DNA of 37,245 nucleotides from Caulobacter sp. D5 (GTDB taxonomy: Bacteria > Pseudomonadota > Alphaproteobacteria > Caulobacterales > Caulobacteraceae): NCBI RefSeq assembly GCF_003185805.1, contig NZ_QHJY01000310.1:1-37245 (forward strand), read 5' to 3'. The stretch's first letter is position 1, and each line of letters opens with the position of its first letter. A program made the position numbers and the translations under genes. The notes beneath the pieces are model-generated. The model ran no database searches. It saw only the letters and a list, made by a program, of their open reading frames with translations, and was not told where the DNA came from. This document shows positions 27,108-29,790 of the stretch, piece by piece.

Positions 27108-28694
27108 TCAGAACCCGCTGGCGATGGCCGCCGGCGCGCTCTTCTCCTTGCGGGCGAAGAGGTTGTTGAGGGCGTTGACATACGCCTTGGCCGAGGCCGT
27201 GAGGGTGTCGGTGTCGGCGGCCGCGCCGGTGGCGATGCGGCCGTCCTCTTCCAGACGCACCGAGACCTGGGCCTGGGCGTCGGTGCCCTCGGTGACCGCG
27301 TGCACCTGGAACAGGCGCAGGGCGGCGCTGTGCGGCACGATCTTCTGGATGGCGTTGAACACGGCGTCCACCGGACCGTCGCCCGAGGCCTCGGCGCTCT
27401 TGGGCTGGCCGTCGACGTCCAGGGTCAGCTCGGCCGACTGGCCTTCGGTGCCGGCCACCACGCGCAGGTGCGAGACACGGATCTTTTCCGAACCGCGCGC
27501 CAGGGCGTCGTCGACCAGGGCGATGATGTCGTCGTCGTAGACGTGCTTCTTGCGGTCGGCCAGGTCCTTGAAGCGGCCGAAGGCCTCCTTCAGGGCGTTC
27601 TGGCCCAGCTCGTAGCCCAGGTCCTTCAGCTTGGCGCGGAAGGCGTGGCTGCCCGAGTGCTTGCCCATGACCAGGCTCGACGGGGCCTGGCCCACCGATT
27701 CCGGCGTCATGATCTCGTAGGTCTCGCGGTTCTTGAGCATGCCGTCCTGGTGGATGCCGCTCTCGTGCGCGAAGGCGTTCTTGCCGACGATGGCCTTGTT
27801 GTACTGCACCGGGAAGCCGGTGATGGCCGATACGTAGCGGCTGGCGCGGGTGATGTGGGTGGTGTCGATGCCGGTCGCGAAGGGCAGCTTGTCGCCGCGC
27901 ACCTTCAGGGCCATCACCACTTCTTCCAGCGCCGCGTTGCCGGCGCGCTCGCCCAGGCCGTTGATGGCGCACTCGATCTGACGGGCGCCGCCCTGCACGC
28001 CGGCCAGGCTGTTGGCCACGGCCAGACCCAGGTCGTTGTGGCAGTGGGTCGAGAAGATCACCTTGTCGGCGCCCTCGACGTTGTTGACCATCCAGTTGAA
28101 CAGGTCGGCGTATTCCGACGGATAGGTGTAGCCCACCGTGTCGGGCAGGTTGATCGTCGTGGCGCCGGCCTTGATGGCGGTCTCGATGGCGCGGCGCAGG
28201 AACTGGCGGTCGCTGCGGGTGGCGTCCTCGGCCGACCACTCGACGTCGTCGCGCAGGTTGCGGGCGTGGGTCACCGAGCGGGCGATCACGTCGATGACGG
28301 CGTCCGGCTCCATCTGCAGCTTGTGCTTCATGTGCAGGTCGGAGGTGGCGATCACCACGTGGATGCGGCCGCGCTGCGTGGGACGCAGGGCCTCGGCGCA
28401 GCGGTCGATGTCGACCTGGTGGGCGCGGCAAAGGCCGGCGATGGTCGAGTTCTTGACGATCTTGGCGATCTCGTTGACCGACTGGAAGTCGCCGTTCGAG
28501 GCGATCGGGAAGCCGGCCTCGATGATGTCGACCCCCATCTCCTCGAGGATCTTGGCCAGTTCCAGCTTTTCTTCCAGCGACATCGAGGCGCCGGGCGACT
28601 GCTCGCCGTCGCGCATGGTGGTGTCGAAGATGACGACGTTGTCGCGGCCGGACTCTTTCTTGGAATCGACGGCGGCGGTGATCGGGGCGGTCAT
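27108..28694 (-). CDS. leuA: 2-isopropylmalate synthase
   Basis: LeuA condenses 2-ketoisovalerate with acetyl-CoA, the first committed step of leucine synthesis. The 528-residue protein has the TIM-barrel domain (VIFDTTMRDGEQSPGASMS with metal-binding Asp, then the H-x-H pair in FSTHCHNDLG), GxGERAGNAALEEVVMAL, and a C-terminal regulatory domain that binds leucine (RLFQVHAVTEGTDAQAQVSVRLEEDG). Full length is normal. The ATG at 28694 is preceded by an unusual leader with a leucine-rich peptide. The stop lies in the hairpin TGAGGC-TTTAGC-GCCTCA (27093-27110). Confidence 0.97.
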   Translation of the reverse strand: MTAPITAAVDSKKESGRDNVVIFDTTMRDGEQSPGASMSLEEKLELAKILEEMGVDIIEAGFPIASNGDFQSVNEIAKIVKNSTIAGLCRAHQVDIDRCAEALRPTQRGRIHVVIATSDLHMKHKLQMEPDAVIDVIARSVTHARNLRDDVEWSAEDATRSDRQFLRRAIETAIKAGATTINLPDTVGYTYPSEYADLFNWMVNNVEGADKVIFSTHCHNDLGLAVANSLAGVQGGARQIECAINGLGERAGNAALEEVVMALKVRGDKLPFATGIDTTHITRASRYVSAITGFPVQYNKAIVGKNAFAHESGIHQDGMLKNRETYEIMTPESVGQAPSSLVMGKHSGSHAFRAKLKDLGYELGQNALKEAFGRFKDLADRKKHVYDDDIIALVDDALARGSEKIRVSHLRVVAGTEGQSAELTLDVDGQPKSAEASGDGPVDAVFNAIQKIVPHSAALRLFQVHAVTEGTDAQAQVSVRLEEDGRIATGAAADTDTLTASAKAYVNALNNLFARKEKSAPAAIASGF

Positions 28695-28738
28695 GGAGTT
28701 GTCTTTCGCGAGGTCCGGAGGGCTGAAGGGCGGTTCAT
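28691..28738 (-). other. Possible 15-codon mini-ORF overlapping the leuA start
   Basis: An ATG at 28738, directly after CAGGGG, opens 15 codons whose TGA overlaps the leuA ATG by two bases. Such a layout could couple leuA translation to that of the leader region. No ribosome-binding site at proper spacing is apparent, so it may be chance. Confidence 0.3.
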
Positions 28739-28806
28739 CCCCTGAGCGACCGGCCGCGACGATACGTACGCGCGGCTAGACGGACGCCCAGGGGCGGCTA
28801 AGCCCC
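28739..28806 (-). promoter_or_regulatory. Mutually exclusive RNA helices in the leuA leader
   Basis: On the minus strand GGGGC (28806-28802) can pair with GCCCC (28795-28791). The same C-rich segment, CCCCTG (28794-28789), can instead pair with CAGGGG (28744-28739), enclosing a separate GCCGCG/CGCGGC stem (28776-28771 with 28758-28753). The first arm lies inside the Leu codons, so a ribosome stalled there would open it and favour the second. No U-tract follows. Confidence 0.5.
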
Positions 28807-28844
28807 AGCGCAAGGAGAAGGAAATTGTCGCGTTCGCGGCACAT
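28776..28844 (-). CDS. leuL: Leucine-rich leader peptide of leuA
   Basis: A 22-codon frame from ATG at 28844 to TAG at 28778-28776 encodes a peptide with LLLALGL at residues 9-15. Five of those seven codons are leucine: CTT, CTC, CTT, CTG, CTT. Three of them are CTT, uncommon in the surrounding high-GC genes. This is what a leucine-sensing attenuator peptide should look like, and it sits 81 bases before leuA. The ATG is only about eight bases past a promoter -10, so the transcript is probably near-leaderless. Gene symbol by analogy only. No terminator T-run was found downstream, so the output step is unknown. Confidence 0.75.
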   Translation of the reverse strand: MCRERDNFLLLALGLSRPWASV

Positions 28845-28851
28845 GACGGAT

Positions 28852-28880
28852 TGTTTAGCGAACCGCGCCAAATCCAGCAA
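28852..28880 (-). promoter_or_regulatory. leuA leader promoter
   Basis: TTGCTGG (28880-28874) and GCTAAACA (28859-28852), separated by 14 bases, match the Caulobacter housekeeping promoter (TTGACGS, 10-14 bases, GCTANAWC) at five of seven informative positions in the -35 and five in the -10. Transcription would start at about the ATG of the leader peptide. Confidence 0.6.
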
Positions 28881-28941
28881 GCCGTTTGCTCGCAAGACGG
28901 GCATTTCGCCGCGCCAGGGGCAAGAAATGCCCCACTCGGAA

Positions 28942-29676
28942 TTAGGCGTCGGTTTGTTCTTCCTTGGCTTTCAGCCAATTGCGGGCGACCCAACCCGCTC
29001 CGATCCAGATCGCGGCCGCGATGACCAGCATCACGATGTGCTGGACGCCGCCGCCCCGCATGGCCTGGACGATGGTGTTCCCGGCAAAGGCGGTCAGGGC
29101 GATCTTCGGGATGATCCCGATCGCGGTGCCGGCCGTGAAGTCGCGCACCTTCATCGGCGTGACGCCGGCGGCCATGTTGACGACGATGAACGGCGCGGAC
29201 GGCACCAGGCGCACGATCAGGCTGGCCAGGAAACCGTTCTTGCCGATCAGCTTCATGAACTTGTGCACGCCGTCGCTGGGCAGGCTGGCCAGCATCTTGC
29301 CGCCGAACGCCCGGCCGACCCAGAAACCGACCAGCGACGACACGAGGGTGCCGATCCAGCTGTAGGCCAGGCCCGTCCACGGACCGAAGGCGACCACCGC
29401 CGCGGCGATCAGCACGAACTGCGGCACGCCCACGAAGGCCAGGGCCGCGAAGGCCCCGACGGCCGCCGGCAGCGCCCACGGGCCGTGGGCGGCGGTCAGC
29501 CACTGCTCGACCGTGGTCTCGCCGTTGAGGCCCAGAAGCTGGGCGCCGAACAGGAAGACGATCCCCACCCCGCCGAACAGCACGAAGGAGACGGCCACCG
29601 CGCGCCAGGCGCGGGCGTCCATGTTGGTGAAGAAATCTATGAGACGGCGGATGATCACGGGTCCTGCCTCGCGCAT
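28942..29676 (-). CDS. VTT/TVP38-type membrane protein (SNARE-associated family)
   Basis: The inner-membrane protein (244 residues from ATG 29676) has the VTT/TMEM64 core: FVGVPQFVLIAAAVVAFGPWTGLAYSWIGTLVSSLVGFWVGRAFGG and, after a re-entrant-like loop, NGFLASLIVRLVPSAPFIVVNMAAGVTPMKVRDFTAGTAIGIIPK, a conserved G-R-x-x-P pattern. VTT proteins include DedA-like transporters of undecaprenyl phosphate and lipids; function here is unknown. In-frame starts also exist at 29730 and at a GTG at 29658, the last with GAGG at better spacing. It faces ParA divergently. Confidence 0.85.
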   Translation of the reverse strand: MREAGPVIIRRLIDFFTNMDARAWRAVAVSFVLFGGVGIVFLFGAQLLGLNGETTVEQWLTAAHGPWALPAAVGAFAALAFVGVPQFVLIAAAVVAFGPWTGLAYSWIGTLVSSLVGFWVGRAFGGKMLASLPSDGVHKFMKLIGKNGFLASLIVRLVPSAPFIVVNMAAGVTPMKVRDFTAGTAIGIIPKIALTAFAGNTIVQAMRGGGVQHIVMLVIAAAIWIGAGWVARNWLKAKEEQTDA

Positions 29677-29790
29677 GGTCGGCGCCGGGTCAAGCGCCCC
29701 GATGGCGTCAAAAGCGTGGCCGCTGTGCATCGACGAGAAAAGTTCGCCCCGGCGGCGGGCGCCGAAAGGCCGGATTCCCGCGTGGCGACT

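Follow-up and report, generated by a model that had tools for sequence, protein, structure and literature searches.

Compared by description, the system that appears nearest in design to the one reported here is the LEU element located ahead of leuA in Actinobacteria (Seliverstov et al. 2005, PMC1262725). That element is described as a pseudoknot for which a binding protein is favoured; mutations in its leader are said to have some effect that does not fit classical attenuation, and the study concludes that regulation is not influenced by the Leu codons (PMC1262725). In both systems a short ORF containing a run of Leu codons precedes leuA, and the likeness extends to other attenuator parts, which are said to be missing from the actinobacterial element (PMC1262725). 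A further likeness lies in the pairing of the Leu run with the region upstream of leuA, which involves the SD box in Actinobacteria and which, in our data, is seen in two groups of loci, termed CGA and LLL, but not in Caulobacter. The two systems differ in structure, a pseudoknot there and a long hairpin (P2) at the leader stop codon here, and they are likened by description only.

The enterobacterial leu operon is controlled by an attenuator in which a Leu-rich leader peptide with rare Leu codons senses charged tRNA-Leu and an intrinsic terminator delivers the output. The locus studied here shares both the Leu-rich leader ahead of leuA and the use of rare Leu codons, whereas the terminator of the enterobacterial system has no counterpart that we could find. 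In translational attenuators of the erm type, a ribosome stalled on the leader, through the action of antibiotics together with the nascent peptide, frees a sequestered ribosome-binding site; release by a stalled ribosome would be common to both systems, with stalling on the leuA leader presumably caused by uncharged tRNA-Leu instead. Within the same organism group, the Caulobacter crescentus ilvBN/ilvIH leader, which contains Ile and Val codons, is reported to act by transcription attenuation through a rho-independent hairpin (PMC4117421), and like the leuA leader it represents peptide control of branched-chain synthesis, although of a different operon. The C. crescentus coding map from that ribosome-profiling study names leader peptides for trpS and ilv and reports 375 leaderless mRNAs, and the main text of the paper contains no word beginning with 'leu' (PMC4117421). 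In Sinorhizobium, trpL/rnTrpL is described as a leaderless leader-peptide sORF belonging to a tryptophan transcription attenuator that yields an sRNA (PMC10117765); it and the leuA leader would both be leaderless sORFs of Alphaproteobacteria, with tryptophan and the sRNA output found only in trpL. The literature matches listed, as titles and the beginnings of abstracts, included no description of the leuA element, of which an earlier mention is possible, and none offered a mechanism by which leucine would control alphaproteobacterial leuA. A survey of proteobacterial attenuators by Vitreschak and colleagues from 2004 and work by Lopatovskaya and colleagues from 2010 may cover attenuators of Alphaproteobacteria.

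The locus lies in a 37,245-nucleotide stretch of Caulobacter DNA, the whole of which we call the window. A first-pass annotation had proposed a Leu-rich leader peptide with its own promoter ahead of leuA; leader peptide, Leu codons and promoter all stood up to the comparisons below, but the conserved RNA hairpin and the spread of the element over much of the class had been missed.

A leucine-codon leader ORF ahead of leuA

The leader peptide ORF MCRERDNFLLLALGLSRPWASV (28776..28844, minus strand) encodes 22 amino acids and reads ATG TGC CGC GAA CGC GAC AAT TTC CTT CTC CTT GCG CTG GGG CTT AGC CGC CCC TGG GCG TCC GTC TAG, the last codon being its stop. A gap of 81 nt separates its end from the leuA ATG at 28694. 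The leuA gene itself (27108..28694, minus), which we presume to be the regulated gene, encodes a 2-isopropylmalate synthase of the bacterial type, matching NCBIfam TIGR00973 at 695.9 bits against a cut-off of 598.7, with two PRK00915 models also exceeding their cut-offs. Sequence and alignment place the Leu-codon run CTT CTC CTT GCG CTG GGG CTT at 28800..28820 (minus), and the distance from its last CTT (28802-28800) to the hairpin is fixed. When the 247-nt intergenic stretch was shuffled by dinucleotides, 68 of 5000 shuffles attained five Leu codons in seven in any frame, and the Leu-codon cluster by itself (about 1% by shuffling) is suggestive. We judge the leader ORF to be more than a chance occurrence because it is conserved among same-genus genomes. 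Indeed, the element was present in all 56 such genomes for which DNA upstream of leuA was fetched, the window's own included (61 genomes were searched and 58 had a LeuA match, two partial matches being left unfetched). The proposal of a 22-codon Leu-rich frame 81 nt ahead of leuA was therefore borne out by this 56/56 presence as well as in its coordinates, its codons and the identity of LeuA. A second in-frame ATG at 28904 permits a 42-aa reading, but it is located 5′ of the promoter. Directly 5′ of the leader promoter lies the ORF of a VTT-domain protein (28942-29730, minus), which ends 97 nt ahead of the leader ATG.

Comparison of Caulobacter-type loci also bears on the promoter. The leader N-termini vary (for example MCRERDN, MTVARDL and MRRNRDN) and the Leu codons and frame are kept; the first-pass expectation that frame and Leu codons would be conserved and the flanks would not was thus met by the drifting N-terminal codons, but the promoter flank proved to be conserved too. 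The -35 hexamer TTGCTG occupies 28875..28880 (minus) and the -10 hexamer TAAACA, with GC just before it, 28852..28857 (minus). In 41 of 41 Caulobacter-type loci, with identical copies counted once and with a few loci from named contigs and the rest from the genus sample, TTGC starts 35-36 nt and TA 11-13 nt ahead of the leader ATG. The Caulobacter promoter consensus is GCTANA. Applying ordinary sigma-70 numbering to this fixed spacing puts the predicted +1 at about 28845, that is, on the leader AUG or 1 nt before it. A consensus scan of the window reported no promoter; the near-leaderless promoter is, however, supported by the comparative evidence.

The codon content of the leader was assessed over 154 elements retrieved with the second of two search patterns described below. 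Per 10 codons its frame contains 4.79 Leu, of which the search pattern required one, versus 1.49 and 0.16 in the other frames, and it is open over 16 codons in 146 of the 154 elements, versus 103 and 72. CTT makes up 57.8% of 663 leader Leu codons versus 3.9% of 1627 in leuA (up to the 200 first codons), and when one required CTT per element is subtracted 229 of 509 leader Leu codons are still CTT. Five genes of the window use CTT for 8 of 131 Leu codons, which agrees with the earlier remark that a codon uncommon in this DNA is used in the leader; the remark holds for the whole sample, and either tRNA sensitivity or RNA pairing may lie behind it. The codon after CCC is TGA in 93 elements, TAG in 9, TAA in 4 and TGG in 48 (n=154), placing a stop directly there in 106; 39 of the 48 TGG elements are Caulobacter-type, where the leader ORF mostly ends 9-12 nt further on. 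CTA takes the place of CTT as the last Leu codon in several distant matches found by the covariance model, and elements of the CGA group have an Arg codon in place of one Leu codon. The in-frame Leu bias, the CTT to CTA swaps and the interchangeable TGA, TAG and TAA stops point to translation of the leader ORF.

A conserved hairpin at the leader stop codon

At the leader stop codon the sequence forms the hairpin P2, CCCCUGAGCG/CGCUCAGGGG, whose 5′ arm CCCCTGGGCG (28785..28794, minus) lies within the leader ORF and covaries with the 3′ arm CGCTCAGGGG (28739..28748, minus), the latter also being covered by the model match. In alignment A2, which comprises 100 chosen sources and is biased towards P2 by having been fitted to the model, 95.3% of cells were paired, compared with 30-62% for slid partners. 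Double changes occurred in 53 cells versus 8.5 in shuffles, none of 500 shuffles reached 53, and 7 of the 10 pairs show them. The strongest cases of covariation are swaps in the core, in which CCTCTGAGCG occurs with CGCTCAGAGG and CCCTTAGGCG with CGCCTAAGGG. By these comparative measures P2 is a conserved RNA structure adjoining the end of the leader ORF. At gathering score Rfam returned nothing in the window and, in 17 loci, a single tRNA only; three sub-gathering matches on a 401-base stretch were set aside as chance.

The element across Alphaproteobacteria

Other orders have the same layout: a Leu-codon run is followed by CTT-A-NNNN-CCCC-TGA, with the spacing kept constant, then by a hairpin that CAGGGG closes, and finally by leuA. 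A second script located the element in 57 of the best 80 of 591 named-relative matches, to which L052 was added by eye, and among the same best 80 it was absent from 15 Pelagibacteraceae loci. The first search pattern demanded a CCCC/GGGG-like core with arms at least 7/10 complementary and did not require CTT; it found 92 of 136 loci and missed 44, of which some are real (the Caulobacter CGG group), and it put at least two loci, L041 and L081, at the wrong place. From 60 of 70 distinct sequences we built alignment A1 and model R1, with 82 positions and 10 base pairs, keeping out the misplaced L041 and L081, L048, and near relatives of retained rows. The core CTTA-N4-CCCCTGA is very strongly conserved in A1, an invariance that is partly built in because the first pattern required a CCCC/GGGG-like core, and the CTT columns are without variation in the 60 aligned sequences. 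CTT invariance in the 154-element set is likewise built in because the second pattern required CTT. Evidence free of pattern selection comes from the variants that the model picked up, CTA and CCTC among them.

The model was then run genome-wide and blind to leuA, with R1 E-values that are rough and with stricter filters that lose weak matches in whole-genome scans. This search matched 86 of 289 alphaproteobacterial genomes with 88 matches, of which 83 were directly 5′ of leuA and two were 5′ of a 118-aa ORF followed by leuA. The CTT pattern with leuA close 3′ was seen in 69 of the matches, the distance from hairpin to LeuA motif being 78-247 nt; 14 of the other 19 precede the same LeuA type (in L187 and L204 across the 118-aa ORF), two (L201 and L211) precede another LeuA subfamily, and three lie away from leuA. 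These last three (L220, L221 and L223) are all weak, at 24-28 bits, and two of them are the second match in their own genome. Strict matches were obtained in 80 of the 141 genomes carrying this LeuA type, and inspection of 20 of the 61 genomes lacking one revealed a weaker same-strand match in 8, a hairpin recognized by eye in L240, and none in 11. A phylum sample, whose split inside and outside the class is unstated, gave matches in 61 of 349 genomes, every one of them from the Alphaproteobacteria, and the 26 new loci it contributed have a LeuA motif just 3′ of the match. In the window the model matches at 28830-28737 with 71 bits (E 2.6e-15), the next best match there scoring 12.8 bits. On the evidence of these searches the element is spread over much of the Alphaproteobacteria and is not Caulobacter-specific. 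In L201 (401-478) and L211 (401-494) it stands ahead of a yeast-type LeuA (NF002991 above cut-off), which suggests retention or acquisition of the leader when the LeuA enzyme type changed.

Pairing of leader segments with the leuA upstream region

We compared how well leader segments pair with the sequence from P2 to the leuA ATG and with shuffled or swapped stretches, in 149-150 of the 154 elements, four with more than 110 nt from hairpin to ATG being left out. For P1, in which the Leu run pairs with sequence upstream of leuA, the permutation z was -9.6 in the CGA group (n=44) and -5.8 in the LLL group (n=62), with 0 of 10000 permutations in each case, while upstream control segments gave -1.6 (CGA), -2.0 (LLL) and -2.3 (the Caulobacter GGG group). 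With nonredundant sequences, the two halves of the run scored -5.0 and -4.2 in the CGA group (37 of 44; controls -0.1 and -0.5) and -1.8 and -5.1 in the LLL group (56 of 62; one control -2.4). These strong statistics support P1 outside Caulobacter; in Caulobacter loci it was not above chance in the same tests. The SD region itself was paired with the Leu run at a mean probability of at least 0.5 in about a third of elements (14 of 44 CGA, 21 of 62 LLL), and against swapped partners this SD pairing was no better in the CGA group (568/2000) and marginal in the LLL group (143/2000). The paired stretch extends to the purine-rich leuA start region in L050, L152, L164 and L172 but not in several others, L145 and L165 among them. 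Ungapped 8-mer matching of CTTANNNN to the leuA upstream region gave 5.90 versus 5.85 expected, which speaks against P1 in a simple form.

In Caulobacter a different segment may be involved. Segment S3, CGTATCGTCGCGGCCGGTCG (28747..28766, minus), either belongs to the P2 stem or base-pairs with sequence upstream of leuA (P3), the predicted 3′ strand of P3 being CGCGAAAGA (28702..28710, minus), which is also the weak SD-like region of leuA. In the first pairing tests, in which the Caulobacter-type groups included at least one outsider (L064, L196), two Caulobacter subgroups gave P3 a shuffle z of -1.59 and -0.98 and a permutation z of -1.6 and -3.2. With outsiders removed, the 19 nonredundant Caulobacter-type loci gave a weak shuffle z of -1.23, but the permutation z was -0.67 (1228/5000, not significant), and P3 in Caulobacter is weakly supported. 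In the LLL group S3 reached a permutation z of -3.0. Column-wise covariation for P1 and P3 (alignments A3 and A4) was left uncounted, since the 3′ strand has no fixed position or shifts its register. Two further pairings were rejected: the 1:2 hairpin GGGGCUUAGCCGCCCC had probability 0 in free Caulobacter RNA, and visual inspection showed that most sequences of the CGG group and of other orders lack its GGGG there; pairing of the P2 3′ arm with the leuA upstream region gave a mean z of -0.17 over all elements, a 16-nt version giving permutation z of -2.95 and -2.33 in two Caulobacter groups.

Folding of the window RNA indicates how a ribosome could choose between these structures. In free RNA P2 is complete and P3 absent, and P3 would therefore need a ribosome staying at the stop. 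The folds with ribosome footprints blocked are switch-like: when the ribosome covers the RNA as far as the stop codon, P2 is gone and pairs between S3 and the leuA upstream region form (10.2 expected), whereas at the four upstream Leu codons tried the ribosome leaves P2 complete with zero such pairs. With the A-site at the last CTT a mixed state is predicted, with P2 mostly lost and an SD pairing of 0.30. Predicted SD pairing is otherwise little changed, at 0.41 in free RNA, 0.38 with the ribosome at the stop and 0.20-0.26 when it is stalled on upstream Leu codons.

Proposed mechanism and alternatives

The locus combines an ORF rich in codons for the pathway product, ahead of a gene of that pathway, with a conserved RNA structure at the ORF end, features expected of attenuators in general. 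By kind it is most likely an amino-acid leader attenuator with a conserved hairpin, in which leucine would be sensed through ribosome position. The earlier analogy with enterobacterial attenuation fails at the output, though: a scan of the window found no intrinsic terminator, and of 154 elements 5 have TTTT within 12 nt 3′ of P2 and 2 have TTTTT somewhere from P2 to the leuA ATG. Because an intrinsic terminator is absent, textbook transcription attenuation does not fit, output by intrinsic termination is unlikely, and initiation of leuA translation becomes the likely output.

We therefore favour, with a probability of roughly 0.6, a cis-acting leader-peptide attenuator of leuA that is ribosome-mediated and leucine-responsive and that most likely acts on translation initiation. 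As judged from promoter spacing, transcription would start at or next to the AUG of the short Leu-codon-rich ORF, and the position of the ribosome on that ORF would report charged tRNA-Leu. Ribosome position would in turn select the downstream RNA structure, either P2, which is supported by covariation, or a pairing involving the leuA upstream region. In other Alphaproteobacteria, where P1 is supported statistically, a ribosome stalled on the Leu codons would free the leuA upstream region from the Leu run. In Caulobacter the ORF continues to a stop inside the P2 loop, and a ribosome there would break P2 and allow S3 to pair with the leuA upstream region, while one stalled on the Leu codons would leave P2 intact. 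Our confidence in this attenuator is lowered because the SD is covered in only about one-third of elements and because P3 is missing from free RNA. Against it also stand the chance-level P1 of Caulobacter loci, the nonredundant permutation test of P3, the small predicted change in SD pairing, the z of -2.4 and -2.3 of upstream control segments, the Arg codon of the CGA group, and the LEU-element results on leader mutations and Leu codons (PMC1262725). Frameshifting at CUU-A came under consideration as well and forms no part of this proposal.

The same leader-peptide sensor could instead act through Rho, with an idle leader ribosome exposing a stretch ahead of leuA to Rho-dependent termination and a stalled ribosome or P2 preventing it. 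The lack of an intrinsic terminator and the 81-nt gap between leader ORF and leuA in the window would suit such an arrangement, and Rho is raised by the LEU-element authors for cys leaders of Actinobacteria (PMC1262725), but Rho-dependent termination does not account for P1, and we regard this arrangement as unlikely. Still less probable is a reading in which a protein or ligand binds the conserved RNA and the leader ORF is secondary. The very strong CTTA-N4-CCCCTGA core, although partly demanded by the search pattern, would be in keeping with this, as would the argument for a protein at the LEU element (PMC1262725); the in-frame Leu bias, the CTT to CTA swaps and the TGA/TAG/TAA interchange nevertheless point to a translated ORF.

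The two remaining explanations have little to recommend them. An upstream ORF without regulatory role, its conservation reflecting something else, is very improbable given the covariation of P2, the position ahead of leuA across the class and the codon bias. Transcription attenuation of the classical kind, ending in an intrinsic terminator like that of the enterobacterial leu operon, could appeal to the Leu-codon leader peptide preceding leuA and to the reported attenuation of C. crescentus ilvBN (PMC4117421), yet with no terminator in the window, U-tracts as scarce as those counted above and no Rfam leader family at gathering score, we consider it hardly credible.

Beyond the ribosome-mediated attenuator itself we tentatively entertain a broader possibility, namely that the element is an RNA regulator new to the catalogues and present over much of the Alphaproteobacteria. 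Its leaderless Leu-codon ORF would serve both as sensor and, in many lineages, as the strand masking the leuA start; it would track leuA even where the enzyme belongs to another subfamily, and its design would be common with the actinobacterial LEU element, by common origin or convergence. A covarying, terminator-free RNA tied to leuA offers a directly testable mechanism for leucine control, links leaderless translation to amino-acid sensing, and bears on the unsolved actinobacterial LEU element. The element could also enter catalogues as a new RNA family, together with a family of missed small ORFs.

Variant loci

Several loci depart from the common layout. In L187 and L204 (minus) the element is separated from leuA by a 118-aa ORF, which starts MKTINLAEKLSLFDTHWDP in L187 and has a relative in L204; given this position, the ORF and leuA may be controlled together by the element. 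The P2 helix of L241 (319-397), CCCCAAACGG/CCGTTTGGGG, is unusual; the leader ORF passes the usual stop, and helix and stop position differ together. On plasmid pFER4 of Paracoccus ferrooxidans (L273, 572-641), a variant leader without the CCCC/GGGG core precedes leuA at 15.7 bits, with the Leu run CTCCTTCTTCTTA and the hairpin CTGAGCGG/CCGCTCAG, and its run CCTTCTTC is complementary to GAAGAAGG ahead of leuA. Finally, L228 carries about three slightly differing copies of a motif around AGCCCGGCATCGGGCTAAATTG between hairpin and leuA.
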